Program-made: the position numbers and the translations under genes | Origin: Ianthella basta | Taxonomy: Eukaryota > Porifera > Demospongiae > Verongiida > Ianthellidae | Direction of reading: 5' to 3' | DNA length: 64,000 nucleotides | Assembly (NCBI GenBank): GCA_964019415.1 | Contig: OZ025878.1 | Span: forward strand, 3,910,512-3,974,511 | Shown here: piece by piece, positions 526 to 64,000 of the stretch | Numbering within the stretch: position 1 is the stretch's first letter | How the letters are laid out: each line of letters opens with the position of its first letter | Notes under the pieces: generated by a model | The model's input: the letters and a program-made list of their open reading frames with translations, nothing else | What the model was told of the DNA's origin: nothing | Databases searched by the model: none

Positions 526-941
526 TCCCTGTGCAGTTCAACCCAGCTATGTACACTGTGACAGAGGGGGACAGTGTTGTCACTGTCACTTTGGAGGCCT
601 TGAATGACCATGAGTTTCCCTTCAATGTCACTGTGAACACCATGGATGGAACAGCTGGGCGTAAGCTGATTGCTTTATCTGGTCTCCTCTACATTGTACT
701 TTACAATTGTCATTCTATTATTTGCCAGGTGGATCTGACTATGGTGGTCCACAAATGATCACAGTGATGTTCCCAGCTGGAGACAACAGCATTGATTTCA
801 CTATTCCCATTATCAACGATGACATTGCCGAGTGTCCTGAGAACTTCACTTTGCAACTGGTGATCCCCCAGAGTGCTGCTGACTTGGGTGTTGTTACAAA
901 GTCAAATGACATTGCAAGCATTAACATCATGGATGATGATG
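526..941 (+). CDS. Calx-beta domain A1 (exons 526-660 and 729-941)
   Basis: The first exon reads VPVQFNPAMYTVTEGD and then VTVTLEAL, the N-terminal strands of a Calx-beta fold. The second exon carries GSDYGGPQ, DDIAECPENFTLQL and a terminal IMDDDG, which matches the acidic calcium-binding end of the family. Splice sites: tacag before 526, gtaagc after 660, gccag before 729, gtaagg after 941. Both exons are phase 1 on both sides (135 and 213 nt). The short 68-nt intron inside the domain is shared by all six domains. Confidence 0.82.
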
Positions 942-3900
942 GTAAGGAATAGCTGAGAAGATCCCTGTGTATGCATTTCACCACTTTCATGTGGAACCAT
1001 TCAACCTGGGCCAAAGCCTGGATTACTTGACTTGGATTCAGCCTGGTTGCATGTCCATGTGAAACAGTTGTTTGTGTATCTGTGCTGTGCTGTGACATTT
1101 GTAATTCATGGACTTAATTCATATATATAATAGGTATTTTGCTTGGAAATATTAACATAATTATTAGAATATGTACATACACTATGCACAATCATTCGGC
1201 ACTCTTTGTTGATGATTGATGAGGCTCACTCACCCGTTAGGGATAGTTATGAACTGAGTTAAAGTGCACAAATGAGTGTATGTGGTATTGAAATGGAGGG
1301 AGAACTCCAATACCAGTATGAATATTTATTTGCTAATGGATCAAATGTGTGCTAAAGAAAACCCTATGAATAATAGTTATTTATACCTAGTTTCATATGT
1401 AGCAGTTATAAAACTGTTATAAGTGTAAATAGAAGTTACTTTGTACCAACTTACTTTGTCTTGGCTCAGCTAAAATCATGTAAAAACACAGCCTAAAGTT
1501 GTATGTATTCATCATAATTATTCTATAAGAGTTGTGCATACATACTCTACAAAAATAATAGTAATGTGTATAGTATGGACTCTATAAGAGTACATGAAAT
1601 ATATTTACATGTGCGGTGACTGCTTTTGCCTTACAGAACACCTTTTGTGAATAGGCATACATTCTCTTTTTCTTGTTGATTTAGCATACTGTACTCTTAA
1701 TCAATGAGAGCAGTTCTATATACAATTATTAATCATATCCTTCCACTCTATACTCTTTTACTCAGTGGTGACAGTCAGTTTCAGTCCTCAGAACTACACT
1801 GTCCCTGAGGGCACACCAGTTGAACTCATGATTGTGCTGGACAGAGAAGCTGTGAAGGATCTAACATGCACTGTAGCTACCATGGACATCACAGCTGAAT
1901 GTGAGTAGAGGGTGTTAATGTGTTATGAAACTGTTATAATGCCTACTGCATAGATTCCATTGTTCGCCTTTCACCTTTGCAGCTCCCAGTGACTACACTG
2001 GTGGCCCTTTTCCAATCACATTTCAAGCCGGTAGGATGAAGGTCACCCTGCCAGTGTCAACTAACAGGGATACAGCTTGTGATGGGAATGAGACTTTCAA
2101 GGCCACCATCACCTGTGATCCGACTCTAATTACCATAGAAATTGGGCCAGACGCTTTTGTTACCATCACCGATGAAACTGGTAAGCCCACAGCACAGTAA
2201 ATGTTATGAATCTTGATCATTTCCACATACTTTTGTTTCTTGTATATAGTCCCTGTGCAGTTCAATCCAACTGTGTACACTGCAACAGAGGGAAATGGTG
2301 CTACTGTTACTGTCACTTTGGAGGCCTTGAATGATCACAATTTTCCCTTCAATATCACTGTGAGCACCATGGATGGAACAGCTGAACGTAAGTTGATTAC
2401 TTCATCTGGTCTCTTCTACACTGTACCATTAAAGTGATAATCTGTTGTATGCCAGGTGGATCTGACTATGGTGGTCCTCAAATGATCACAGTGATGTTCC
2501 CAGCTGGACAGAACAGTGTTAACTTGACTGTTCCCATTATCAACGATGACATTGCCGAGTGTCCAGAGAACTTCACTTTGCAACTGGTGATCCCCCAGAG
2601 TGCTACTGACTTGGGTGTTGTTACAAAGTCAAATGACATCGCAAACATCAACATCATGGATGATGATGGTAAGAAATAGCTTATTGTGAGTCTTTATATC
2701 TTTGCACATTTGTATTTATGGACATGTACAATGTAGTGACATCTGTGGATTCATAGAATTATTTCACAGAGCCAAAGTACCATACTCCATTATGTATTGA
2801 CTAACTTATCAGAAATAACACTATGCACACTTGTTCATGCCTTATTGAGCATTTGATGAGGTTTAGTTGTTGGGTATAAAGGAAGAGGTTAGGCTGAGTT
2901 TCGGTGTAACAGTTAAACCTTGTGTGCGGGGGTTTCTGTAATGTGGCAAGAGTGATAGGCGAGCAGCTTATCAACTATACATGAAGTTATCAATGCGGAG
3001 ATTGAACTGATGTCCGAGCGAGGCAATTTGTACAGACAGTACGTGTGATGTAAAAGGGAAAGGGAGCCCCGAAGCCCCTTGCCTTCTGCAATTATTATAA
3101 ATCCTAAGTATTAAAGGTGTACAAGGAGGATCCCCATGGCCATGCAAAGAAGTGTACATACGTATAAGCAGCTATTGGCAAAATTGCATTACAGTTGGCA
3201 TACAACTTAGCACATTTAAGGTTAAGTGCATGATTTATACCTCATGCAGATCAGCTACATCATGAAAACCACTACCTTGGACTATAACCTATTCATACAT
3301 ACATACATACTTAGCAGCAATGTCATTGCAATGAACAACACATATATGCAAAGTGACAGTTTTTGCCTTGGAAAGAGCCTATGGTGACTGTACCTAAATT
3401 GACCATTCACTGCTAAATTGCATATTCATTGCTGCATTCCTTATGGCTGCATCACGTCTGCCACACTACTCTTTCACTCAGTTGTGACAGTCAATTTCAG
3501 TCCTCAGAACTACACTGTTCCCGAGGGCACACCAGCTGAACTCATGATTGTGCTGGACAGAGAAGCTGCGAAGGATCTAACATGCACTGTAGCTACCATG
3601 GACATCACAGCTGAATGTGAGTGGAGGGTGTTCCTGTAGTATAAAACTGATGAACTGCCTACTGTACAGATTCCATTGTTCGCCTTTCACCTTTGCAGCT
3701 CCCAGTGACTACACAGGTGGCCCTTTTCCAATCACATTTCAAGCCAGTATGATGAAGGTCACCCTGCCAGTGTCAACTAACAGGGATACAGCTTGTGATG
3801 GGAATGAGACTTTCAAGGCCACCATCACCTGTGACCCAACTCCAATTAATATAGAAATTGGACCAGATGCCTTTGTTACCATCACCGATGAAACTGGTAA

Positions 3901-6900
3901 GCACACAGCACACTAGGAATGTGCATACTGCACATGCACACTCATTTCAGGAACACCAAGATGGTAAATACGTATCTGGAATCAAAGTAATCCCAATGCA
4001 CATGTTGTACATAATGGTGCACATCCACCAAGCAGCAGTCACACATTAGGACAACAATGCCGAATAGCAGAAAAAAAAGAGGAAGAAACATTTCACACTT
4101 TTGCTTGAGAACAGGCAATTCTTGGTAAAATTTTACAATTATGTGTGTGGATAATTTGCATTTGTGTATTGGTATCATGCACTTTCAGGCTGCCTTACAC
4201 AGCAAGCAAGCTATAGAGATGTTTTGCAATGGCTGCATGACCCGGAACTTCAGTTACTATTGAAGGCATCATGTGTAAGAGGCTACTAGTGGCAGCAGTT
4301 CTGTCATCGTCCTCTTACGTACCTTTCTGTTGACACCTATACTTTCAGTCGCCTATTGGTATTTGACTTTCTTGTAAAGGTCTGAGTGACTAGGCACAAT
4401 AGGCTATACTTGCTTCTTTTTGATACACACAAGCCAACATTTCACTGTTGTTCAGACATTACAATGCTACCAGCTACCTTCATCAGTGAATGACAAGAAA
4501 GCGCTCTCTATGGGCTGATATGGCATGATGGATGCCAGCTGTTGATGCGAACTATGACTAAAGTTACATAATTATAAACAGGATAATAAAGCCAAGATAA
4601 GCAGGCTAGGATATATACAGGTGGGTAGGTGTATGACATTACACAAGGGGACTAAGATGAGATTAGTATCAGAAAAAAGAATTGCAATTTCAGCCTTAGA
4701 AGTGCGGTGAAAACTTTAGGAAGGGTTCCTCACTCCATATGTCTACATATCCTTGTCCATTCGTCTTGCCTGTGTTCTCATGTATAATTATCATAATTAT
4801 TAATCAATTTTGGCAAGCATGTAAAAAGGCAAAGCAACTATACTAACATTATCACAAAGGCTTGACTATGACTGTGCTTACTGAAGCTTGGTAATGCCTG
4901 GGTGACACATCATGTACATACGTACAGAGTGGCCCTGTAAATCAGCATTCTATATTTTCTCACTAACCTTACTGGACACTTTGTGAACTAAGAGGAACAG
5001 ACAAGCTGAAAAAACATGCATGAGAAAATTATGCATAGTGTGTTCCGGAGAGAACACCTGGACCCCTTCAATTGAGTACCATAAAATGCTCAGACATCAT
5101 ACATGATTAGATGAATCAGCCATTCTCTATGTAAAGTACAACATGTGCAATGTATCTGGCAGAATTAGATTTAGAACAAAAAAGCAAGTAATGGGATATG
5201 AGGTACACATAAAAGTCAGCTTCCAAACTACTTCACACTATTATATTAGCTTACAAACATGCTGTCTTCCTACTTACTAATCATATATGCATAGGCTATC
5301 TTTCTGATTTTACATCAATACACCCAATGACCCCTTTGTATATACAGTCCCTGTGCAGTTCAACCCAACTATGTACACTGTGACAGAAGGAGATGGTGTT
5401 GTCACTGTCACTTTGGAGGCCTTGAATGATCATGAGTTTCCCTTCAGTGTCACTGTGAACACCATGGGTGGAACAGCTGGACGTAGGTTGATTACTTCAT
5501 CTGGTTTCTTGTACAAATTGTACCTGTACTCATGATGTTCTCCTGCTCTATGCCAGGTGGATCTGACTATGGTGGTTCTCAAATGATCACAGTGACTTTC
5601 CCAGCTGGAGACAATAGTGTTGATTTCACTATTCCCATTGTCAACAATGAAATTGCCGAGTGTCCAGAGAACTTCACTTTGCAACTGGTCATCCCCCAGA
5701 GTGCTGCTGACCTGGGTGTTGTTACAAAGTCTGATGATACTGCACTCATTAGCATCATGGATGATGATGGTAATGAACAAAATGACACTTGCTCACAGCT
5801 GCTCAACAATAAATTGTTTGCCTTACAGTATTTAGATAAGCCTAATGAAGAGTCCCTTCAATACCACAGGGGAATAACTGACTATGTGTTAATGCATATA
5901 ATTATATGAAACATGAATGTGTTAATAACCTATAATTTCATAATTATACAATGCAGTGGATTCCTTTATCAAACAAGTGGTTTATCAAAACGTAGTTCTC
6001 TGTTCATCAGAGCAACTTTCAGAGTTTGCATTATGACCCCTGATCTCTTTTCCTTCACTCAGTTGTGACCATCAGTTTCAGTCCTCAGAACTACACTGTC
6101 CCCGAGGGCACACCAGCTGACATCATGATTGTCCTGGACAGAGAATCTGCAAAAGAAATAACATGCACTATGACTACCATGGACGGCACAGCTGAATGTG
6201 AGTGAAAGGGACTTCTTTGTAACAGGGCTAACAGTGCTTACACAATTTCACTTTCACTCCTTTACAATATTGCAGCTCCCAGTGACTACCTTGGTGGCAC
6301 ATTTCCAGTCACATTCCGTGTCGGTGAAATGAAAGTCACCCAGCCGGTGGAAACTATCAATGATACTTCATGTCAGACTGATGAGTACTTCAAGGCCACC
6401 CTCACCTGTGACCAGACACCTGTTAGAATGGCAGTTGGGCCAAATGCTTTCACTACTATCATTGACACAACTGGTAAGTACACAGTAGGGAAGGCTACTA
6501 TTGTCATCCCTATACATGCAGCAAGGGTTGGGAATGACAAAGAGATATGTACTTTTGTAGAAGGACACAACCAGGCAGTGCCAGTTAGAAATGGACACTG
6601 GAAGTTGTAGCATGTGGGAAAATGTATTCCTAACATACGTAAATGAACCTGCCACAGCAACATTAGCAATAAATATTATAGTAATATTGGCTGCACGTTT
6701 GTCAGTGAAACCAACCTTAGGACCACTGACAGATCTCATTAGCTGCCAAGGACTGTAACTAGTTCATGTTAAAACAACAGCTGTCATCATACCAGGATAT
6801 CTAATGATAAGCATTGTTGCTTCCTGTTTGGATGTAAATGTGTGTGAATATTTGTATCTATATCTTTGCACAGTATGTCCATCTCATTCTGTTCAGAACA

Positions 6901-14604: not shown

Positions 14605-14767
14605 CTGCAGGTACAAAGGAAGAGGAAGCAAGTGTCCAACCTTTAGGCTAGTCAACACAACATCATACTAGTTGAATGGGTGGCCATTACATGTATATGA
14701 GGGTACAATAAGGAGGTACACTGAAGGAATTGCCTCCATCAAACAGGAAGAGGAAACACACACTCAC

Positions 14768-17153
14768 CACTCTGTGGCTTCTTCTTAATATCCATGTCTT
14801 GTACAACTGACAGAGAAGGAGACCAGCTTCCAAACAACTCTGAGAGATTCATTCGGTTAGGATAACAGCCGTCTTGGTGTCGAGACAGAATGAGAATGTC
14901 ACCATCACTGATGCAACGTGTGATACTCGAAACAGGATACAAGGAGTTATGGGGAGGGGCTTTGGTGGCCTTCAACATAGCAGGTGTGTACGGATGGACA
15001 ATGTAGGATGTGGCCTTCAGCTTCGGTGACAGCTGGGTAGTTGTTTTGATGATATCTTGGATAACTGTTGATACATATTGGTGAAGTTTCTCTGGCCCTG
15101 CCTTGCTGTGTCCAACAACCTGGACCACACTACTGTCACTTATCTGGACCACTACATCCACACCCTTAGTGGACATCCAGGAAAGGCCATTCGTCCAAAC
15201 ATTGCAGCAGTGCTCTTTCACACTGGATAACTTGTGGGTAAACACGTGATTGGATGCAAGACGGAGAATGATAGATTGGAGGAGATGTGCAGAGATGAGG
15301 TGCTTCTCCTCTGTCCTCAGTTGCCAGCACACCCACTGGAAGTGGTGTGGGTCTGCATCCTTTGGGAAGAGCTCAGGAGGTTGGGCTGACACAAGAGCAG
15401 GGAAGTACAGCCATCCCTCTCCCTCAGCACCGGCAGTTAGCTTCACAAGGTCTTCTTGCAGTATCCTTGAATCAATCTGGATGCAGAAATCAAGGCTGAT
15501 AAGGACCTCTTGAATCATTGTTGGATCCATTTCGGGAAAAAGCTCCACCAGCTGACTGCAGTGGAGGAGACCAAACTGGTTGACCTTGCCCTGGGACCAA
15601 CTGAACAGGGTGCCATACACGTTGTGGAGAACAGCTTGGATGTCCACAATAAGCCAACTTTGGGAGGGGTCCTGCCTGTTGCGGAGAAAGAGGGTATGGC
15701 CAACTGCTGTTAGATCACGACACACCTCCTCAGGTGGGGGTAAATTCCTAGGGAGTTGTTCAGCGTTCTCCACTAGCCAGGACTGAAAGGTGTGGAGTGT
15801 GATGGCCGGAACAAAGAATGCTTTCCTCACTTGTGCTATGACCCAGTGTAGGTTGTACGAGAGAGTGTCAGAGTTCAGCTGTATAGGTGGAGTCTCCTGA
15901 AAGAAGGTACAAATCTGTCTGATACCATCAGATTCAGGCTTGCGGCAGTCCAGGAGACAGGGACCCTGGATGCTGAAAGGGAACTCCTTCTGCACCCAAT
16001 GAGTGCATCGTAGCAGTTTCTTGGCTGCTTCCTCTTTGGACCTTACTTGGTCAAGGAAACTGCCAACCAGGATCACTTGTGGAGTGGATGGGGCTGACGT
16101 AAGAGCCAGAGGTTGCAACCAACGAACAATTTGTGACTTGATTATGTCTTCCTCGTTGGATGCCTTTACCAGAAGTAACAAGTTTACAGATACCCCTTGC
16201 TTGCTAAGCATGGCCTCCAAGAAGGACTGATGAGGGCCATGGTAATCAGCCTGACCAGCAAAGTCGTAGAACAATGTCTGTCCATACTTACGACTGGAGA
16301 ACTGAACTGCTTCAATTCCAGCTGTGCGTTGGCTGATGTCCTGCACATTTGTAAACCTGTTGATGAACTTCTTCAATCTGCCTTTGTCTTCAACTTGCAG
16401 AGCTGCTATCAGTGTACTCTTACCGTGTTCAGCATTGCCAATTACTGCTACAATGCGCTTGGTAGAGAAAGACTGTGCCTGTCGAATAGTTTGTTGGAAT
16501 TTGTCTGATGCAAGGTCCAAGGGAGATTTGAATTCCTTGTTTCTTGCTGTCATATCTGCTCCTGCCTCCATGAGGAGAACCCCACATTTAATTTTATTGC
16601 ATACAGCAGCAAAATGCAGTGCTGTTGAACCTGCAGCCGGCCTCCCATACCACCACTCTTTGCTAGTGGCAACATTCACACTAGCACCTGCTCTAATCAG
16701 TTCACATATGACTTCATCTCTACCCTCCCAAGCTGCCCTCATCAAAAGGGTCCATCCCCATTGATCTGGTACATTCACATTAGCACCTGCTCTAATCAGT
16801 TCACACACCACTTTTTCCTTACCCTCCACAGCTGCTCTCATCAAAGGGGTCTCTCCCCTTTGATTTCGTACATTGATGTCTGCACCAGCTGCTAGCAGTC
16901 TTTTCACAATACTCAGATAACCATTACAGCTGGCATAGTAAAGGGCAGTTAGTTGTACATTGTCCTTTACATTCACATGAGCACCTTCTCTGATGAGCTC
17001 TTCCACCACTTGGTCATGACCCTCCCTAGCTGCCACAGTTAAAGGTGTTGTGCCATAATGCCCACCTCTGGTGTTCACATTATGGCCCTCTTGACAGGTT
17101 AGCCGCCTCACTTCCTTCAAGTCACCATTCCTACAAGCACTCCAAAGAGCCAT
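14768..17153 (-). CDS. Ankyrin-repeat ROC-COR (Roco) GTPase exon, copy 1
   Basis: About 795 codons are open from ATG 17151-17153 to the donor just below 14768. Residues about 30-210 are five ankyrin repeats (TPL.AA..G, with ELIRAGANVNV in several). A ROC GTPase follows: P-loop GNAEHGKST near 239-247, DFAGQ near 297-301 as the DxxG motif, and GSFLD as the counterpart of the usual THxD motif. Residues from about 430 onward, with WLIVDIQAVLHNVYGTLFS and a QFGLLH segment, look like a COR domain. Roco proteins bind GTP and dimerise through COR. A start in an upstream exon is possible: copy 2 has no ATG here. The exon ends in phase 1, in frame with linker 1. Confidence 0.85.
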
Positions 17154-18420
17154 TCTCCAAATCTCTCTAATAACTACAAGGGAAGGTGTGACCTACAGAA
17201 GATACAATGGACCACTTGTTGAATGAACAACTTCACACACAGAGACCAAATGCCACCTAAAATGGCTGACTACTAAACAGTATGGTTCATTACTAGAGTT
17301 GGCTACAATTAACTGCTAATGACTCTAAAATGACGACGTGAATTGTGCTCCAAGTGCTCCAAGTAATCAAGGATCATGGTAGCGGATCATGGTTACCATG
17401 GTAGTGACACTCGGGCGCTTCGCTTCATGCCTCGTGCTCTAAATCTCAGAGACACCTCTTGGTCAGCATTTAACTACTACTTAAAGGGACACTGCCACAT
17501 ACCATATATCACAAAATGTTCGCAATCAATATTTTTGTAGATTTCACGAATGGAGCAAATTCGTGAAAGTTTCTATCACAAATTTTATATGCATAATAGG
17601 GCATACATTAAAATGCAACCAGCCTCGCTTGAATGTATATAGCTAGTTATTTCACTAATGTACAGTGCATGAGCGTAACTCGGCCAGGGCAAGTACATTT
17701 TGGGCAATAGAACTGTAATCTGCTTTCACTGGCTGTCAGAAAGAAGGGAAAGCAAACCAGACGAAGCACTGAATGGCAGCTGGGCAATCAACACCTGCAT
17801 ATTTGGAGCTGCGCAGGGAAGCCCGTCCCTGCTGAGCTAACACAATGTGCGTTGTGCACTTCACCTGAGGGAACAGTGAAAGTGTTCCCGGCCACGCGGG
17901 GCAAATGACGTCAGCCAATATGGCGGAATCGCCAATAGGCGTGTTGTCCTCACTGGAGCAATGGGCGACGTTAACAACAATCTGAACGCAGCATGCAGCA
18001 GTGAAGTGGAGTGTTGATCAGTTTCGTGGCCGATGGTGGCCAATTAAGTAGAGCGTTTTGTTGTTGTGAGAACACCAGGCTATTGTGCAATCTAGGTGTC
18101 TCGGGTTGACTGGGATGGATATACATAATATATACATACATACTTTTATACAAACGGGGGACGACAACGCAGCACAATTACTTGCCTCGCCTTTCGGCTC
18201 GGCAATAATACTTATGTTATAATAATAACTTGTGTCTGTGCATGATGTCATAATAAACTGGTGGATCAACAAATGGCGCGTAGCTCATTTGCTTGATTTC
18301 AGAAGCAATTGCTTTTGCTACTTCCACTAAAAAGTCTCCTTCGCAAAATTTTATTTGCGAACATCTCTGACACCCCATTTTGGCAGCAATTTGCGACATT
18401 TTTAGGTCGCGAAGATTTTG
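17154..18420. other. Upstream region of Roco copy 1 and start of the inserted block
   Basis: Up to 17307 the sequence matches the region upstream of the second Roco gene (31770-31898). After 'ggttcattact' the match stops and resumes only at 22178. Within it, 17380-17482 contains one arm of the repeat described at 56409-56522, and 17481-17497 holds an end-like motif (aaagggacactgcca). I see no exon. Confidence 0.5.
17906..17935. promoter_or_regulatory. CRE palindrome with CCAAT and YY1-like motifs
   Basis: TGACGTCA at 17906-17913 is followed by GCCAAT and then ATGGCGG within 30 bp. This clustering is typical of animal housekeeping promoters. No downstream coding start can be tied to it with certainty; the THAP exon on the plus strand is the nearest candidate. 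Confidence 0.4.
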
Positions 18421-19017: not shown

Positions 19018-19586
19018 GTGAGCATTGATTTTGGTTGGTATAGTGTCTGATTGCTGCATTCTACTGGCCTGACTCTTCTGGGTACTCCTGTCTCATTCGG
19101 TGCACTGCACAGGCAGGAATCACTCTTCTAATAGAGCGCCCAAGCGAACTGCCGGTATGCTGCCAAGCACGAGGTCCGATTTGGTAGTTAATTGCACTTC
19201 AATGTCCTCGAAGCTCACATCTCACATGGCTACAAGCACTTCTGGGTCCAGGCACACCACACCAAAGCTAGGATGGTCCATGATGCACCCTTGAGATTCC
19301 ATCTTCTGAAGAATTTGTTCACTTCCTTGCAGCAGACACTCTCTTTCCTGGTTGACATCGCAGGACAATTTCCACACTCACATCACCTGTTTTGTCCTGT
19401 CACTGGAAAATTGGTCCTAAAAAAATGGTCCTAGGATCAATTTTTTCATCGAAAATATTGGTCCCCGGACCAGAATTTTCTGAAAATAATGGTCCTACCC
19501 TGAAAAAGTTTGGTCCCATTAAGCAGGGTAACACAATTCTTGAAATAGCTATCTATGTATGTTATGCTATGCATAGCTAGTTATGT

Positions 19587-28026: not shown

Positions 28027-31000
28027 CTGAAAAGGGGGTGGGACCAGAGTAAGTGTTGGGAGCCACTCACTTGTGTGATGGTCTAACCCCTCCAAGTACA
28101 CGTCCAAACATACACCTCTTAAAAATAAACGACACCAGAGTTCAAAACCTGCATAATGAGGACACTACCAACTGTCCCATATCAGGGACACACAGACAAA
28201 ATGCAACACCACCTCTCTAATCAGGACACATAGCCCTGTCCCAAAGGTAACCAGAATAGCCAGGTTCCACTACAACATGAAGAGCTCATGTCCGCACACA
28301 CATGCACTGACACACCTCCCACACTACACGGTACACTGTGAGGTGCACTCATGTGCAGTGACACTGCATGGAGCATACCTTGCTGTGCTGTAGGCAGTGC
28401 CTCCATCTCTGGGGAGGGTCCCTTGTCAGCAGTGGTAGCTCCACTTTGGGAGCTGGAGGATGTCGGTACTGACAGCAGGTCTGAAGAGAGTGGACCTGCA
28501 AAGCAAAAAAGCAGAATGCAGCGTGATTGGTTAAAATATTCAGCAACACACACATCCATGCACACTCCACACAACACTCCCATACACAGACACAAGCACA
28601 TGCACCCACGCATGCAGTCTCCCTGCCCCACGCACGTATACCCACCTGTCTCCAGTCTCCTCTTCATAGATTCACCCAAGGATTTCATCTTTGGGTTACC
28701 CTTAACAGCAGTGATAATGTCACAGACAGTCTCAAAGGCCTCCTCAGTACATGTTTCCTTCAATATCAAATGAAGAAACTGATTCTGCTGTGTTGGGTCC
28801 AGGGTCATTGCGATCCTCCTCTCATCACCTCTATCAATGATGTTGCTGTGTAGAAGTTCCAGGACGACAGCATTAGCATCCATTTCCTTAATGAACTGGT
28901 CCCGAAAGAGATCAAGAACTTGTGCAGCTTCATGGAAAGGGAAGACACATGGTACACAAACCTGATAACATGTAAGGTCAGCTGAAAGGGGACTCCCCAT
29001 TTCCTAATTAACATTTAATTTACCACAAAATCTGAATGTTACCAGCTAACTGAGCCACACAATAAACCTCCTCTGTGCACTAAGGGGTCACCACATGACA
29101 CTTGGGGTTAGTGGATTGCATAAGACTCCATCAGAGACAGTAGGGAAACGCCTACCATACTTGGTACACTGTGAGATGCACTTGTGTGTAGTGACACTGC
29201 ATGGAGCATACCTTGCTGTGTTGTTGTCAGTGCCTCCATCTCTGGAGAGGGTCCCTTGGCAGCAGTGGTAGCTCCACCTTGGGAGCTGGAGGATGACGGT
29301 AATGAGGGCAGGTCTGAAGAGAGTGGAACTGCAGGTACAAAGAGGAGGAAGCAAGTGTCTAACTTTTAGGCTAGTCAACACAACATCATGCTAGTTGAAT
29401 GGGTGGCCATTACATGTATATGAGGGTATAAAGGAGGTATACACTGAAGGAATTGCTTCTATCAAACAGGGAGAGGAAACACACACTCACCACTCTGTGG
29501 CTCCCTCTTAAAGTCCATTGCTTGTACAACTGACAGAGAAGGAGACCAACCTCCAAACAACTCAGTGAGACTCGTCTGGTTGGGAAGACGGCCAACATGT
29601 TGTCGGGATAGAACATGGCCGTCTCCATCACTGATGCAATGGACAATACCCAAAACAGGATACAGTGAGTCAAGGGGAGGGGCTTTGGTGTCCTCCAACA
29701 TAGCAGGTGTGTACGGGTGGATGATGTAGGATGTGGCCTTCAGCTTTGGTGACAGCTGGGTAGTTGTCTTGATGACATCTTGGACAATGGTTGATAAGTA
29801 TTGGTGCAGTTTCTCTGATCCTGCTTTGGTACGTCCGACAACCTGGACCACACTGCTGTCACTTGCCTGGACCGCTATGTCCACGCCTTTGGTCGACCTC
29901 CAGGAAAGGCCATTTGTCCAAACACTGCAGCGCTCTTTCACACTAGGTAACTTGTGGGTGAATACATGATTGGCTGCAAGACGGAGAATGATGGATTGGA
30001 GGAGATGGGCAGAGATGAAGTGCTTCTCCTCCGTCCTAAGTTGCCAGCACACCCACTGGAAGTTCTGTGGCCCTGGATCCTTTCGGAAGAGTTCACACGG
30101 CTTGGCTGACACCAGAGCAGGGAAGTACAGACATCTCTCTCCATCATTACCAGCAGTTAACTCCACAAGGTCATCTTCTAGCACCCTTGCATTCACCTGA
30201 ATGCAGAACTCGAGGCTGATAAGGACCTCTTGGATCATCGCTGGATCCAACTTGGGAAACAGCCTAGCCATCTCATGGCAGTGAAGGAGACCAAACTGGT
30301 TGACCTTGCCCTGGGACCCACTGAACAGGGTGCCATACACGTTGTGGAGAACAGCTTGGAGGTCCACAATGAGCCAACTTTGGGAGGGATCCTGCTTGTT
30401 AGGGAGAAACAGGGCATGACCAACTGCTGTTAGGTCATGACACATGCTTTCAGGTGGAGGAAAGTTCCTGAGGACCAGCTTGGCTTCGTCCAGCAGCCAT
30501 GACCGGAAGGTGTGCAGTGTGATGGCTGGAACAGAGAATGCATTTTGCATCTGTTTCATGATCCAGTGGAGGCTGTATGGGAAAGTATCCGAGTTCAACT
30601 GGAGAGGCTGATTCTCTTGAAATAAAGTGCAAATCTGATTGATACCCTCAGATTCAGGCTTGCGGCTGTCCAGGAGACAAGGACCTTGAACATCGAAAGG
30701 CAACTCCTCCTGCACTGACTGACTGCATCTTAACAGCTTCTCAGCTGCTTCCTCTCTGAACTTTACTTTGTCCAGGAAACTGCCAACAAGGATCACTTGT
30801 GGAGTGGATGGGGCTGATGTAAGAGCTAGAGGTTGCAGCCAGCGAATGACTTGTTGTGTGATAATGTCTTCCTCGTCAGTTGCCTTTACCAGAAGTAACA
30901 GGGTCACAGACGCTCCTGGCTTGCCCAGCATGGTCTCCAAGAAGGACTGATGAGGGCCATGGTAATCAGCCTGACCAGCAAAGTCGTAGAACAATGTCTG

Positions 31001-31769
31001 TCCATACTTACGACTGGAGAACTGAACTGCTTCAATTCCAGCTGTCCGTTGGCTGATGTCCTGCACATTTGTAAACCTGTTGATGAACTTCTTCAAACGG
31101 CCTTTGTCCTCAACTTGCAGAGCTGCTATCAGTGTACTCTTGCCGTGTTCAGCATTGCCAATTACTGCTACAATGCGTTTGGTAGAGAAAGATTGTGCCT
31201 GTCGAACAGTTTGTCGGAAGTTGCTTGATGCAATGTCCAGGGGTGATTTGGAGTCCTTGTTCCTTGCTGTCATTTCTGCTCCTGCCTCCATGAGGAGAAC
31301 CCCACATTTAATATGATTGTATTTAGCAGCAAAATGCAGGGCTGTTGAGCCAGCACCTAGCCCCACATACTCACTGCTAGTGACAACATTCACACTAGCA
31401 CCTGCTCTAATCAGTTCACACACTATTTCATCACTACCCCACATAACTGCCCTCATCAAAGAGGTCCTTCCCCATTGATCTTGTAGATTGACGTCTGCAC
31501 CAGCTGCACACAATCTTTTCACAACACTCCAATGACCCCTATAGCTGGCACAGTGAAGGGCAGTCCATTGATACTTGTTCTTTACATTCACATTAGCACC
31601 TGCTCTGATGAGCTCCTCCACCACTTGGACATGACCCCTCCTAGCTGCTTCTATTAAAGGTGTTGTACCGTACTCACCTATGATGTTCACATTATGGCCC
31701 TCTTTAATTAGCCGCCTCAAATCCTCCTCCAAGTTATCCTCACGACAAGCACCCAAAAGATCCAGCGCT
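27716..31769 (-). CDS. ANK-ROC-COR / CARD / DEATH gene, copy 2, open in all exons
   Basis: Five minus-strand exons: 29491-31769 (ANK-ROC-COR), 29212-29328 (linker), 28646-28981 (CARD), 28379-28495 (linker) and 27716-28026 (DEATH, stop TGA 27716-27718). All joins are phase 1, splice sites are canonical and no stop interrupts any exon. The joined product has about 1050 residues plus an N-terminus from an upstream exon not identified here: the exon starts in phase 2 after tatttaccag and has no ATG near its beginning. The order ankyrin repeats, GTPase, COR, CARD, DEATH suggests a cytosolic sensor or scaffold whose GTPase switch controls death-fold assembly, in analogy with DAPK1 and other Roco proteins. 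Role is inference; architecture is seen. Copy 1 at 11980-17153 is its decayed paralogue. Confidence 0.82.
28379..28495 (-). CDS. Serine-rich linker exon 2, copy 2
   Basis: 117 nt, phase 1 on both sides, acceptor tttgcag, donor gtatgc. It reads GPLSSDLLSVPTSSSSQSGA and ends EMEALPTAQQ. It is open and lies between CARD and DEATH. Confidence 0.74.
28646..28981 (-). CDS. CARD exon, copy 2
   Basis: A 336-nt exon, phase 1 on both sides, acceptor ctttcag, donor gtgggt. After a short lead (ADLTCYQVCVPCVFPFHEAA) it gives six predicted helices: VLDLFRDQFIKEMDANAVV, LELLHSNIIDRGDERRIA, PTQQNQFLHLILKE, TEEAFETVCDIITAV and MKSLGESMKRRLET. The spacing and the pattern of a short 'AFxTVCDII' helix fit a caspase-recruitment domain, a homotypic interaction module of innate immune and apoptotic scaffolds. 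A general death-fold of another subclass is the alternative. Confidence 0.72.
29212..29328 (-). CDS. Serine-rich linker exon 1, copy 2
   Basis: 117 nt, phase 1 on both sides, acceptor ctgcag, donor gtatgc. It reads VPLSSDLPSLPSSSSSQGGA and ends EMEALTTTQQ. It is open and joins COR to CARD. Confidence 0.75.
29491..31769 (-). CDS. Ankyrin-repeat ROC-COR exon, copy 2
   Basis: An open exon of about 759 codons. It begins ALDLLGACREDNLEEDLRRL, followed by four or five ankyrin repeats (one fewer than copy 1), then the ROC GTPase with GNAEHGKST, DFAGQADYHGPHQSF and VGSFLDKV, then the COR segment (PSQSWLIVDLQAVLHNVYG, then QFGLLHCHEMARLFP). Close identity with copy 1 in the GTPase core contrasts with differences in the ankyrin region and COR, so the core may be under stronger constraint or gene conversion. 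The donor is gtgagtgt just below 29491. Confidence 0.87.
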
Positions 31770-31898
31770 CTGGTAAATACAGGTGAAGGTGCTACCTACA
31801 GAAGACACAATGGACCACTTGTTGGATGAACAACTTCACACACACAGAGACAAAATGCCTCCCAAAATGCCTGACTACTAAACAATATGGTTCATTAC

Positions 31899-49344: not shown

Positions 49345-52300
49345 GTGAGTTCACAATTCCATTTCCTAGATTAATGAGGGATAGGAGAATAGTAGCTTGT
49401 GTGGTAATGACTACGGCTGAAGTTGAAATAGTCTAACCCGAAGTAGGTCGCAGCGCTAAAAGTAAAGCATGGTATCGACGTGCTGAGAAACGTCATAGCG
49501 ACTGCTTGATACAAAATTTCTGAATGATTATGATGTTTCTAATCACACAGTAGCAGCTAGAAGACCGAATTGCCATAGCTCTCGTCGAGCCTAATTGGCA
49601 TACGTCTATAGCAGTACGGCTATACATTTCATTGTCGCAGAGAGCGAGCGGCTTTTCTACTGTCCCAAAAATAATCAGAAATGGGACAGTATGGTCAGAA
49701 ATGGGACTGTCACGGAAATTTAGGTCCGGCGAACAAATGGTATGGACCAATGTTCCAGGAAAAATGGCCCGGTGTCACAGTTTAAAGTATCCCTCCGGGT
49801 AACCGAAAGTCGCGATTAAACGACAGAGAACTGACGATAGAAGCTACTGTATAATGCTTCCTACTGCAGGATGAGACCACCTACTACTAGTAGAGACTGT
49901 TAAGCGTCCAAATCTCCAAACCTTGCATTTCATTTGAGGTGAATTAATGCAGAATAATAGGTCTATCGCGATAACCGACGATCGCGGGGAATTTTCTGTC
50001 TTTGAACTATGGCTGGAACGCTTGTACTGTCCCAAGGACGCTCTGAGAATGCCACGAGGGCCTTACTGCAAGGAGCAGAAGTGTTTAAGCAGCGCCAAGT
50101 AGCATGAAGGCGTGCAATATCTCAAACTGGTGGATATCGTTGTGCAGGTGCAAAATCGCTGCAAAGTAGCATGCGAAGAGGAGGAAACTGTCCGAATGAT
50201 AACAACTACTTGTCCCATAAGTGTCAAATGGAGGTCATATACGGTATTTAAAGAATTGTGTCACCCTGTTTAAAAGGGACGAAAAGTTTCAGGGTAAGTA
50301 TACCCTGGACCATTGTTTTCAGAAAATTCTGGTCCGGGGGAACAATATTTTCCTTTTTAAAAATGGTCCTAGGACCATTTTTCAGGACCAATTTTCCAGT
50401 GACATTCCCATTTCTGATAGCATTCGGTGACACTCAGATACATCACTCGTTCTCTGCAAAACGTAAATGCCACTACCTTGTTGTAAGTACACCAAGCAAG
50501 TATTAACAGAGCTACACTTTGGTCTTGGTCTGATGTCAATATCTCCTATATTCGCAGAGAAACAGCTAGCTGCAACTATCCCACTTTTTCACACACGAAG
50601 TGTCCCATTTGATTACAAGAGTATACGCGGCTCGTCATGATTGCATCCAGTGGATATCAAACGGATTGCGACGAAAGTAGGGTATTTCTTAAATGAAGCA
50701 TAGATCTAACTGCTGTGAGAGTTAGGTGTGGGCCTGTCTAAAACTGAGATCAGACTCAAGTGTCCTGTCACTGAAAAATTGGTTCTACAAATGGTCCTAG
50801 GACCAATTTTTTCATAGAAAATATTGGTCCCCGTACCAGAATTTTCTGAAAATAATGGTCCTACCCTGAAACTTTTGGTCCCTTTTAAACAGGGTGACAC
50901 AATTGTTGAAATAGTACAGTATCAAATAACCAGACATAACAAAACCTTTCTACAAAAATGTTGGGATGGCATAAAAAGTACAGAAACAAGTAAAGGCTGT
51001 TACACAGTGGAGCATTACCCATGGTCCCTACATGCAAGAATGTTGCACCTTATAGTCCTACACCCTTGAATGTAGGGACGATGGTTAATGCTCCACTGTG
51101 TGGCAGCCTTTACTTGTTTCTGTACTTTTTATGCCATCCCTACATTCTTACAATTTTGTAGAAAAATTTTATTATGTCTGGTTTCTGCACTTTTATGGAG
51201 CAGGAGCTAAGAAGCCTGATATAGCTAGCTATTGAAACTTCTTGTGTAGCTCCTAATGGAATTAGCTGCAATTTGCATTTGAGAAATTGTGATAGCATTG
51301 TAAATAATTCAGTCCACAAGCCAAATGCCATGGTAAGTCGTAGAGCAAGGCGAAAATTTCCACTGTGGAGCAAAACAACGGAAGAAGGAGCCTCCGGAAG
51401 CCGTACGCAGCTGCTCGCCGCGCAGTGGCACCACCCACGCCGGTTTCATCTGGTTAAATTACGTAATTTGAAAATGGCGTCCGCCCCTTGGTCAAGCAAC
51501 ACGGCGGGAGTCGTGGCAACCGTCGTCTTTCGCATTAAATTGTGCCGCCTTCTAACCTATAAAGGAATGCAGCCAGCCAAAAATGGTGTAATATGGAGCG
51601 AGAAGTATTCTCCTGGTCCCTCTGGTTCGTGTGCTGCGGCTGTCAAGGAGAAGAAGAAGAAGACGAAACGTGGGAAAACTTGAGGACGCGCTCTACGTGT
51701 AGGCGCAACTTTGCTAGGATGTAAGATTAGCCATGCGCATTGTTCAGTCCCCGCTTCCTCATGGTAATCTTTGTTTGTCGGTTTTCGGTCCTGTTCAGGA
51801 GTAGCGCGACTTTTCGTTTGTATTACAGCATACAAACAACCACTGCCATCCCTACATAGCACTACTGTCTGATACATAGGATAGCTAAATAGCGTCCAAT
51901 TATAGTACATGGCTAGGAATAATGATACAGCATCAAATAATGCACATAGAATAGCTAGCTATACGTAGTGTCTAATATTACACAGTGCAGCCAGCCAAAA
52001 ATGGTGCAATATGGTGCAAGAAGCATTCTTCTGGTCCCTCTGGTTTGTGCGCTACAGCTGTCAGAAAAGAAGAAAAAGACAAAGAAGACGAAACGTGGGA
52101 AATGTCAAGGGTGCTATCGCCATGTAGACGCACTGGTCGTGTTCAGGAGTAGTGCGACTTTTCGTTTGTATTACAGCATGCAAACAACCACTGCCATCCC
52201 TACATCAACCATAGAATGGCAGCAATCAAGTTTGGTCAAAGCCGGAAAACAGCAGGAAGAATAATTAGAAAATGGCGGTCGCCCGGGAAGGAAAAAGCGG

Positions 52301-55300
52301 AAAAAGACAGATAACTCTCTGCCAACTGCACGACGGGTGACGTCAACCCCGCTAAAACCTGACCCCCAATGCCCCCAGCAACCACAGCAAGTTTGATGGC
52401 GATGGAGCAAGAAACGTGTGCGCATATCCCGGACACAGACAATTTCGGCTTTATAATATTATATTAGATTACACTGCCTAGTGATCATCACTTCTTAATT
52501 AATTGATCGTCACTTCCCTTATTGAGATATTCTGATTGACAGTGAAACATTTTCTCTTATTTTGGGGTCAAGTAGCTTCTGAATCAGGAAAACTCTATCT
52601 AGTTTTGCCCTGAAGAGCTGAGAACCAAATTAGGCATACACAATCTACATGCATGTGTGCACAAATCTACGGCAGGTCACCTCCATTTCTTTTTTTGTTG
52701 CAGAGTTATCTTAAAATTATTTACAATTTCAATCAATAATTTCTGGAGAAAAATGTAATAAAGAAGAAAACTAATAATAATAGTATAGGAAAATAAATGA
52801 AAAACATGCGGTCAGTTGAAGGGGAGGCACTGAATGCCCCCCCCCCCCCCCAAAGAGAAAGTCCAGTCAAGAAAAGAAATCAGAAAGGGAGGTGGTGACC
52901 GTGGTGCCCCCATTGTTCCCATCACTGAGGCATTTCCCCTTTAAACAGCAAGGACAGGCGTTGCCTCCGGTAGGAGAAAGACTTGGGTTCTCAGTGACGT
53001 TTGAGACAGCAACCCAGTTCTCTCAAGAACGAGAAAGTCTCTGCACAGTTATTCTCCTTTCACTTAAAAGTTGCGAATTTTGTAATAACTTGCTAGCGAG
53101 TGCAATTTTCCAGGTGGCATCCATAGATTTCTGCGCACCCTTGTGTACATTGCGGTGAACACAACCGAATTTGAAGCGTTAGCAACGCTGCAGACTAAAC
53201 CTTGGCCCCATACACTGCTATAACAGTGAGTGCTTAACACGATGAATGTAGAAAGAAAACGTGTATTCATCTCCTGCACTGCTTCAGAGAGATCACCAGA
53301 AGGCTCTATTAGTGCTTGAAACCCTCACGATTAGAACAAGTGATTCAGTCTTCACACCGACCCGAACGGCTAATAGATTGATTTTCACACCTCGATTTCA
53401 AAGCGTCTCTCTTGCCAAGATGGCCGCAGTTCGCTCCACGGGTTGGTGGCGATTGCATGCCGTACGAGTTCAGCGGCCCCGAAATGAAAGATCCAGTGTC
53501 CAAAGGAACTCCACTACGGCGGAGCAACGCGACGTTCGGACCCTTCTTTGCGAAATCAGGGAGGGGCGGCGATGGTGTAATCTTACATCAGATCGATTGG
53601 CTTTTATTCGGTCGCTGAAAAAGGGACATCATTGTAGGCGGCAGTGCAACCATCATCCTCTCCACCAGATCGTTGTTCTCTTTACTCAACACCTCTACAG
53701 ACTCACTCAATTTGATCATCTCCCCTACGGCAGCTCACCTACCAACTTTGTAACACCTAACACTAACCTAACACTTTTGCCAACAGGCAGAAGCAACAGA
53801 CAAACGCCCATCCATCCAGCATGCCAACACCTTCTTTCATTTTTCAACACTCCAAATGGAACCATCCTGCACACATCTCGCATTCCCAACAACCACCAGT
53901 ACACCACACTGATGAGTCCCAATTAGGGCGAAACAGCTGTCTGTGGCTCTTCCATCTTTGTTGGATGACTGGGGGAGGCGATCACTGATTGCCAACCAAT
54001 AGGGCTTCGTGCCCCTGCCAACTGAGACACCAATACTGGTGTAATAGGTAAGTTAGGCGTAATACCCAGTGATTACCCCATCAATCTCCTTATTATCTGA
54101 GTCAGGTGCCTGACAAGCAGCGAAAGAGCACCTCTTCCCTTCTCTTCTTTGCTATGTCTCAGCGTCGTTGCATTTTTCTCTGTTCTGTGCTTATCTGTTA
54201 ACATTCCACCCTGTTGTCAGGGTAGCTAAAGCTTCTGAAACTGGGGTGCCTTGTCCTGTTCCTTTGGCATGGTCTGTGGATAGGACATGCTACCCTTTGG
54301 CTGGGGTGACTTATAAATCATGTATCTTAGCTCACACTCTATAAAAAGTGCAGAAGCTACCGTATATAGAAATAATAATAAAACTCTACAAAGAATAGTA
54401 AGGAAGTAAGGATAGCATATAAAGGACAGAAGCAAGTGAGGGCTGTTATGCAGTAGAGCATTCACCATCGTCCCTACATTCAAGGATGTAGGACTACAAT
54501 ATAATTATGATTCTTGCATGTGGGGACCATGGTGAATGCTCCACTGTGTAACAGCCCTCACTTGTGTTTCTGTTTTTTTATGCCATCCCTACATCCTTAC
54601 TATTTTCATAGAAAATTAGTATAATTTTAAATGCATGGGTCATGTATTTCCATGCTTTAAAAGTACTGTTTACCTAAAAGCATAACGAAAACCAAAAGGA
54701 ACAATTATGTGTTATATAGTGAAATGCTGGTGTCACGGAAAATGATTCCCACTTTATGGTACCCCCGTGTAGAATTTCCTAGGATATTCGTCCGAGAGAT
54801 ATCTCTGAAATATAGAGCACAAGGCTCAAGGGTACGAAGACCCCAAGTGCCGAGTGGTGCATCAAATACATACACATTACCATGGCAATGGGATCTATTA
54901 CAAGTTATAGGCAAGCACTGGTAATTACACATAAGGCATAAAGCTATGATACAATGGCAAGTGATGGACTTTTAAACTGTCACATGATAAGCTGCTGCCA
55001 AATCAGCCTACAAGACATTTTGAGGGACATTTTGTGGTGATGCATGCCATGTTTTGCTCACCATTGTAATTTTTCAGGCATCAGTCATTCAGAGTTTGGG
55101 TGTGGTTGGAGCAAAGACTAGATAGCTAGCATAGATGGTGCTAGCCAATACCTCCATTCCAGAATAAGAGCACAAATTGGTTATCAGTTTGCCAGCCATT
55201 TATTATCTTATATCGGAGTTATGGATAAGGTTCAAGTACATATGGTATAGGCTTATGCTACGTCATTGAACAGTTCTGTAACTAGCGAATACCCAAAACG

Positions 55301-62277: not shown

Positions 62278-63303
62278 TCCAGAGCTGGCCATGTATTCCA
62301 TTACAGCACACCAGACAATGCCGTCATGGAGTCCCAACTCCAGCTTGACTAAGAACTACAATCCATGACAACAGTACAAGAAGTATCCCATGAAAATTTA
62401 ATCCAATTTACTCTTCTATTACTTGAACTGTCTTTTAAGTTGCACTTCGAAGTAATGCGACAATTACTGCTAATATAAACTACTGTTTCCCTGCAAAATC
62501 TGAACATAACAACACTGTAGTTTGCAAGCCAAGTAAGAGGCCTATGCAATGATATTTGTTTACAATCAACAGCCATATGCAGTATTTGGAGAAATAACTA
62601 TCTGCAATTGTTAAATTCCAATCATTATGTTAGATGCACAAGATGTCCTTTTTCTGAATAATCTCAGGACATTCATAAAGGCTCCCTCTCTACAACATTC
62701 CAAGCAACCCTGCAAATGTTATGCCAACTAGGCTAAAAGGAGAGGTTACTCTTTCCAATTAGTCCACCATTAGAATTGGTGTTTATTGAAGACCTTGGCC
62801 TGAAGATTTGCTAAGAACCAGGTGTCCCATGTAGTTCATCTATCTCTGCTTCAGTATTCTGGTTCTTAAACACCTTGCATGATCAATAATGTGATTGTTA
62901 AGTTGGATGGTTAAATTTGGTCTGCTTCAGCTGTTTCTTGCTCAGCAGGTGGATGACACCTACCTTCAAGTTTGCATGGAGTACTCTTTGATGACAAATA
63001 CTTATTGAAGAAGTGTGGCAGGGCTGGCCTCATATATAGAGTTTTCTTCAGGACAGTGTAAGGGATCTGGTCCAGTAGATTGGAAGTGGATAATGACTTT
63101 TATGTCACAATAACATTCCTAGTGCTGCTTCTACGATTTCACAGGTAACAATTGCTGGTGGGGGAGCTTCCAGCATCCATGACAATGTGATGTAAATGAG
63201 TGCAGCCTTGGTATGTAGGAGTTAGTGAAGTAGGACTCAGCTTCCCGCTTACTGAAGGGTACGTTTGCTTGCAGTAAGCCACTGCGAGGCAATAGATTGA
63301 AAT
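62278..63303. other. Non-coding region
   Basis: No exon, element end or simple repeat that I can support. Confidence 0.45.
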
Positions 63304-63443
63304 GGTAATCACTGAATATTACGTCAAACCCACCAACTACACGAGTATTGGTGTCACAGTTAGTAGGTTGGCCGGGCACGAAGCCCTTTTGGTTGGCAAC
63401 CAGTGATTGCGTCCCTCAGTCATTCAACAAAGATGGAAGATCC

Positions 63444-63485
63444 ATAGACAGCTGTTTCTCCCTGATTGGAGCTCATCAGTGTGGC
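63444..63485 (-). ncRNA. Hammerhead ribozyme, left arm of the foldback
   Basis: On the minus strand CCACA, CTGATGA, a weakened stem II, GAAA, the ACA/TGT stem III and the cleavage C are all present. Stem I has one C-A mismatch (CCACA against TATGG), and stem II has weak pairs. The core is intact, so slow cleavage is possible. Confidence 0.6.
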
Positions 63486-63632
63486 ATACTGATAGTTGAG
63501 GGTGGATGACTGGCTGCTTCTGTATCCACCACAAGTTAAACATTTGTGGTGGATACAGTAACTTGTGCTTTCAACGCCCTGTTGAAACTATAAGTGTTTA
63601 ACTTGTGGTGGATACCCTCAACCATCAGTACG

Positions 63633-63676
63633 CCACACTGATGAGCCCCAATCTGAGCTAAAAAGCTGTATGTGGC
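63633..63676 (+). ncRNA. Degenerate hammerhead, right arm of the foldback
   Basis: CCACA and CTGATGA are kept (63633-63644), but GAAA has become TAAA and stem III is broken. The G12 equivalent needed for catalysis is lost, so it is expected to be inactive. Confidence 0.55.
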
Positions 63677-64000
63677 TCTTCCATCTTTATTGGATGACTG
63701 AGGGACGCGATCACTGGTTACCAATCAATAGGGCTTCATGCCCCCCAACCAACTGTGACACCAGGAGTGCATAATTATGCGCTCATGGTGACACCAATAC
63801 TATTGGTGTCACCATGTTGGTGGGTTTGGAGTAATATCCAGTGATTACCGTTTCCTGCTTGCTGCATTAATTGGTTTTATTGCAGTGAAACTCTCATCAA
63901 TGATTTTCTTGGAAAGACATCTGGAGGTAGTGGTAGCACTCTCACTCTGCTAGCTCTTGCTCATGCTGCCTACAGCATGCTTAACTGTCACAAACAGCTT

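Follow-up and report, generated by a model that had tools for sequence, protein, structure and literature searches.

We found that the hammerhead motif at 53.9 kb of the analysed window, a stretch of 64,000 nucleotides from the sponge Ianthella basta, belongs to a non-autonomous animal retrozyme that survives here as a relic and was very probably moved by the machinery of Penelope-like elements (PLEs). The window feature is itself an ordinary relic of a known element type. For animal retrozymes in general, we consider it reasonably probable that they are parasites of PLEs, that is, RNAs with a PLE start-site ('tail') signal that would be inserted from both target strands, with a circular or uncut multimeric template. 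If this is true, the fingerprint of PLEs could be read from retrozyme insertions in whichever animal genome they occur.

The hammerhead ribozyme motif in the window is genuine. An Rfam covariance search, which a sequence-only reading of this DNA had proposed, agreed with the call, as 53903-53947 (+) matched RF00163 (Hammerhead_1) with 36.5 bits (E 1.6e-5) against a gathering cut-off of 34. It was noted that this was the sole match in the window to reach an Rfam gathering score, and that the hammerhead core pattern had two matches within the window compared to 0/100 shuffles. The parts of the motif are listed below.

53903..53947 (+): type I hammerhead ribozyme, from the RF00163 match
53904..53908 (+): stem I, 5' strand CCACA, read from the sequence; it pairs with UGUGG at 53942-53946 over 5 bp
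53909..53915 (+): catalytic core CUGAUGA, from the covariance model and the core pattern
53916..53929 (+): stem II GUCC/GGGC with loop CAAUUA, from the covariance model and pairs read from the sequence
53930..53932 (+): catalytic core GAA, from the covariance model and the core pattern
53933..53940 (+): stem III ACAGCUGU, an 8-nt loopless palindrome; in the 45-nt monomer and dimer folds, full pairing was predicted only between two molecules
53941..53946 (+): C17 (53941), followed by the stem I 3' strand UGUGG (53942-53946); predicted cut at 53941/53942

The invariant core, the 5-bp stem I and stem II had been described at these positions and were found there, with stem II pairing 53916-53919 with 53926-53929 through four pairs that include one U-G, and the predicted cut is the one given earlier. 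The description of the hammerhead as complete stands for the core and for stems I and II, but does not extend to the monomer, where stem III is a loopless palindrome. Compared to RF00163, the motif is alike in its core, in a stem I that is open at its end and in stem II, and it differs in a stem III without a loop and in the one wobble pair of stem II. The sixth stem I pair is A-C in the window copy versus G-C in most of the compared copies.

Folding was then examined with ViennaRNA. Three stems were not obtained within one molecule, as stem III has no loop and the minimum-energy fold of the 45-nt monomer was other than a hammerhead (-12.2 kcal/mol); two 45-nt strands were predicted to form a double hammerhead (-29.9 kcal/mol). 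In minimum-energy folds, 0/5 stem I pairs formed in 130 nt of the window and 0/5 in the full unit, with most core nucleotides paired elsewhere, and in the predicted fold of an 80-nt stretch all five formed and the core was partly paired. A two-strand 97-nt fold that included the distal stem kept the intermolecular stem III, lacked stem I beside the core and placed the core in another hairpin. From the 45-nt folds, the dimer is the plausible active form of the window hammerhead; the longer folds count against this. Predictions of this type omit tertiary contacts and folding during transcription. Because stem III is a loopless palindrome, the solitary window copy would be expected to cut poorly except as a dimer, and cutting within a single transcript should be weak, since a second molecule or copy is required for stem III and the sole further match to the core pattern within the window is decayed and on the minus strand. 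Published minimal and dimeric hammerheads likewise have a weak stem III (PMC7761336). It was also noted for 53871-53972, and for the corresponding part of the unit, that long predicted folds contain a hairpin made by the unit stretch CATCAGTACGCCACACTGATG, which absorbs the hammerhead core; such a hairpin could be a switch by which the ribozyme is turned off once the RNA is finished.

The motif had been placed in a repeat, which was borne out, and the repeat turned out to be genome-wide. Two retrozyme loci were found in the window, with the following parts.

53886..54087 (+): 5'-truncated retrozyme copy, unit 293 to 148 (aligned over 53886-54085), ending at the 'short' 3' terminus; blastn, 90.7% to the full unit
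63269..63550 (-): minus half of the second retrozyme locus, which is a fold-back; 87.7% to the unit; unit 175>244
63447..63479 (-): decayed hammerhead with stem I and stem II pairs broken; core-pattern match, no Rfam match
63579..63854 (+): plus half of the second retrozyme locus, with a changed hammerhead core; pieces 63579-63763 and 63816-63854, no pattern match

The fold-back at 63269-63854 is more decayed than the copy at 53886-54087. For the latter copy neither a minus half nor a target duplication was found, and it is probably no longer mobile. Nested MITE-like inverted repeats were observed directly downstream of it, at 54394-54604.

We assessed the distribution of the repeat across the 209-Mb genome. 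A degenerate core pattern had 389 matches, with none for the reversed pattern used as a control, and the same pattern gave 0 matches in the IMG/VR contigs and 0 in the GTDB genome set. The stretch 53880-54130 had at least 76 matches in its own genome (best 40 of 1023 candidates scored), and RF00163 had at least 18, of which at least 13 were over the cut-off (best 73 of 23027 candidates scored, a lower bound). The repeat units are roughly 340-370 bp long and occur both in tandem and as head-to-head fold-backs. Among 100 of the 389 core-pattern places, same-strand neighbours less than 700 bp apart were spaced 368-374 bp in 11/11 cases, and opposite-strand neighbours within the same limit were ordered minus then plus in 11/11; among the same 100 places, one plus-then-minus pair on C4 was 931 bp apart, past the 700-bp limit.

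A unit taken from locus L039 is 348 nt long with a GC content of 0.474, a longest ATG frame of 45 aa and a fold z of -8.0 compared to shuffles. The features described for metazoan non-LTR retrozymes are a type I hammerhead in short units arranged in tandem, a low GC content, self-paired RNA and the lack of LTRs (PMC7229834, PMC7761336). The sponge family resembles them in its type I hammerhead, in tandem units within their range of ~170-400 nt and GC below 50%, and also in having no long frame, self-paired RNA and PLEs in the same genome. As judged from the sequence, the family is an animal non-LTR retrozyme, fitting wherever tested (tandem units, GC, frame and self-pairing), and in the course of these tests no LTR, PBS or PPT came to notice. 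Unlike the metazoan retrozymes of the cited passages, the copies here are often fold-backs in head-to-head order, in which the 3' end can take two alternative positions; 'inverted' occurs 0 times in the main text of PMC7229834, where other wording or the supplement could describe fold-backs. The palindromic stem III here predicts dimeric action, which the same article describes in amphibians but not in most invertebrates. In one open literature library, nothing was found for hammerhead, Porifera and retrotransposon together, and the retrozyme insertion signature described below was not found there either, so it is not claimed as unpublished.

The hammerhead was further characterized among the subfamilies of the repeat. 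Stem I covaries between subfamilies with pairing kept (CCACA/UGUGG versus CUGCA/UGCAG), and its distal part also covaries with pairing kept (CATCCAAC/GTTGGATG versus CATCCTAC/GTAGGATG), where the pairs were read without the MAFFT alignment, in which the distal stem was out of register. The same distal helix was not found among pairs read from the sequence in L024, L029 or three members of a subfamily with a looped stem III. Mismatches in stem I were located at the sixth pair in the window copy and L029, and at the fourth pair in L033. Among 74 pieces, the 10 invariant core positions had 11/516 cells changed compared to 686/15198 outside the 45-nt motif; with array units that are non-independent and pieces below 84% identity dropped, this count is only suggestive of a hammerhead core that is conserved relative to the rest of the unit.

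The subfamily with the looped stem III was noted in dispersed repeats at L028, L032, L034, L036, L037 and L038 (around 1500). Its members scored 31.3-37.2 bits against RF00163 in the genome search and 29.9-32.9 bits in the four that were rescored, and stem I was CUGCA/UGCAG in the three members examined. From its sequence, this subfamily is possibly active as a monomer. At L036:1406-1447 (+), just upstream of a hammerhead, a match resembling the histone 3' stem-loop was observed (RF00032) at 27.9 bits, against a cut-off of 34.

Insertions of the retrozyme family typically have the anatomy of a fold-back in which the 3' end is short on one side and long (tail) on the other. Units were numbered from the cleavage site, and ends were scored in 24 copy clusters, comprising 22 from 21 fetched loci and two in the window; the two clusters of L044 were counted as one insertion, as were the pieces of the L039 array. 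Among 36 outer 3' ends, 18 were located at 141-161, 15 at 188-198 and three elsewhere. The two preferred positions, ~45 nt apart, hold 33/36 ends in intervals that make up 32 of the 348 unit positions, and both intervals were drawn post hoc, once the ends had been seen. Only one of 34 inner 5' ends fell inside these intervals, a total from which further inner breaks in L039, L043b, L046 and win2 were excluded.

One short and one long outer end were found in 8/12 two-ended clusters of one subfamily, the exceptions being L010, with short/short ends, and L014, L043b and win2, each with one end outside the intervals. In later-fetched loci of the abundant subfamily, the ends were short/long in 3/3 and duplications of 12-14 bp were seen by eye, and for both subfamilies together the short/long pairing was present in 11/15 scored two-ended loci. 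A script identified 11-14-bp target duplications, located at the ends or no more than ~8 nt away from them, in 5/15 loci and no duplication of at least 8 bp in 9/15, both window loci included; L049 has a 14-bp repeat that lies away from its ends. Six loci of another subfamily (L048-L053; 73-80% to the unit) were left out of the end scoring. Their outer ends read about 136-142 or 173 on the same unit and not 188-198, the flanks of L051 continue as inverted repeats, and the true ends of these six loci were not found.

The retrozyme ends reproduce the tail signature of PLEs. The PLE tail consists of two adjacent start sites for reverse transcriptase (RT) and is described as unique to PLEs (PMC11167929), and in bdelloids PLEs exhibit a tail of 31 bp together with an inverted pLTR and duplications of 8-10 bp (PMC3846280). 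In the sponge genome, Pfam identified RT and GIY-YIG domains in both candidate PLE proteins that were scanned (ORFs in L057 and L059). The three PLE loci examined were all fold-backs with short and long ends ~30-38 nt apart and 9-14-bp duplications (partly by eye). A small hammerhead-like motif was read in 3/3 of these loci, and Rfam gave no hammerhead match in them (L057-L059) at E up to 1. Among five further GIY-YIG loci, the hammerhead-like motif was present in L062 and L063 and absent from three. Among 55 GIY-YIG matches, opposite-strand pairs less than 4 kb apart were read as minus-then-plus in 13 cases and never as the reverse. By eye, L060 (C2:8917400-8921400) was noted to be a GIY-YIG fold-back element whose UTR carries a hammerhead-like motif with a changed core. 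No relative of the PLE protein with a solved structure was found by sequence at E 0.001.

The retrozymes are similar to PLEs with pLTRs (PMC3846280, PMC11167929) in the fold-back, the partial tandems, the one-end tail, the target duplications (~8-14 bp) and the hammerhead motif. The tail of PLEs is 30-40 bp, compared to a retrozyme tail of ~45-53 nt. Unlike PLEs, the window's element has no room for an RT or an endonuclease and is non-autonomous, as the 348-nt unit with its longest ATG frame of 45 aa is too small for an RT plus GIY-YIG protein. The whole retrozyme unit had only 12-21-nt matches to the three PLE loci. At the level of the tails, the abundant subfamily shares GCAATGAACC (10 nt) with one PLE (0/5000 shuffles), AATGAACC (8 nt) with the second (69/5000) and only 5 nt with the third (4329/5000). 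The tail of the window subfamily shares 6, 6 and 5 nt with the three PLEs (989, 346 and 4422 of 5000 shuffles), none of them a significant match. The tail match had been seen by eye before it was tested with shuffles, in a total of six comparisons. The full GCAATGAACC block was present in 6/7 tail copies of three loci, with one change in the outer tail of L065.

We also considered which reverse transcriptase moved the retrozymes. LINE insertions can invert by twin priming, which counts in favour of a LINE-type enzyme rather than that of a PLE. LINEs were also left open in the 2020 retrozyme paper (PMC7229834). However, two alternative 3' ends, one per side, are the PLE tail signature, which the three PLE loci here exhibit, and movement by a LINE-type enzyme appears unlikely in this comparison, which covers PLE loci. 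That PLEs mobilise animal retrozymes had been proposed earlier, on the grounds that the two co-exist, share hammerheads and form tandem copies (PMC7229834). The insertion fingerprint provides independent mechanistic evidence for PLE mobilisation of retrozymes and bears on a stated open question, and with it this question can be tested wherever an animal genome has been assembled, as well as by reconstituting the PLE reaction.

Mobilisation by PLEs, the preferred reading, could proceed as follows. Transcription would read through tandem units, and hammerheads paired as dimers through the palindromic stem III would cut the transcripts into ~350-nt RNAs, which by analogy with published retrozymes would probably be joined into circles. 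The PLE RT-GIY-YIG protein would reverse-transcribe a circular RNA or uncut multimer into the chromosome, cutting both target strands and beginning synthesis on each. With the start on each strand at one of two adjacent RNA sites, a short and a long 3' end would result, both facing outward, and the target site would be duplicated. The window copy, which lacks its 5' side, ends at the position of the short start site. We infer both the enzyme and the form of the template from the insertion anatomy. None of the 34 inner ends lay 10 nt or less from the cleavage site, and the sequence continues across this site in many copies, among them that of the window. As a linear cut monomer would stop at the cleavage site, the sequences suggest that the template was a circle or an uncut multimer. 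Between the two, the circle is only a candidate, since in the anole system RNA that had not been processed was the main substrate in vitro (PMC11167929).

One tandem array bears on whether reverse transcription is needed at all. L039 (C15:3663500-3673400) contains ~20 head-to-tail retrozyme units, with 21 copies spaced 342-366 bp, and some units are without an intact hammerhead core. The unit lengths were noted to follow a repeating order, and 77-bp repeats adjoin the array; the length order suggests later amplification of multi-unit blocks. The alternating lengths of these ~20 units suggest local amplification, as would be expected of a transcribed hammerhead satellite DNA spread by DNA-level amplification (unequal crossing-over) alone, without reverse transcription. 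This is quite improbable as an account of the family, as the dispersed loci with 11-14-bp duplications, the two preferred outer ends and the head-to-head order need an insertion mechanism. A palindromic DNA transposon or MITE holding a hammerhead by chance would have the inverted ends seen in the fold-backs, some with target duplications, but is scarcely credible given that the outer ends differ by ~45 nt in most scored two-ended loci, the inner ends vary and tandem multimers exist.

The sequence-only reading had placed the motif in a long intron of a Calx-beta-like gene, from where it could cut the pre-mRNA. This was unsupported, as the motif is in a mobile repeat and the copy is truncated and solitary with a loopless stem III. 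In the Pfam scans and the ORFs tried around the motif, nothing marking 53.9 kb as an intron was found. The nearest downstream plus-strand exon-like ORFs judged gene-like start at 57377, and no Pfam match was found among those tried. If the host had recruited the hammerhead as an intronic element to cut pre-mRNA from the neighbouring plus-strand gene, this would agree with a motif that passes Rfam and is located on the same strand as these ORFs, 3.4 kb upstream. Such recruitment is nevertheless highly improbable, since the motif is one of 389 core-pattern matches of the mobile repeat, its monomer is predicted to misfold, and the ORFs tried around it had no domain supporting a gene model. As a solitary, truncated copy whose stem III is palindromic, the window copy makes a poor candidate for cleavage of a host transcript.

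Pfam located a Calx-beta domain at 5.5-5.9 kb of the window, with a second match under the cut-off at 6.2-6.6 kb; among the best 150 of 969 candidates, another Calx-beta was located at C11:3978846, which corresponds to window coordinate 68335 and is outside the window. Repeated Calx-beta-like exons were observed across 665-6607 (+), with copies near 665, 1970, 2392, 3686, 5487 and 6206. Two ankyrin-GTPase-like genes, related by reading, were noted at 14742-17192 (-) and 29462-31795 (-), and the former had Pfam ankyrin matches and weak GTPase matches. At two distant places, 19419-19497 and 50790-50863, nearly identical 33-bp tandem units were encountered that contain the palindrome TGGTCCTAGGACCA.
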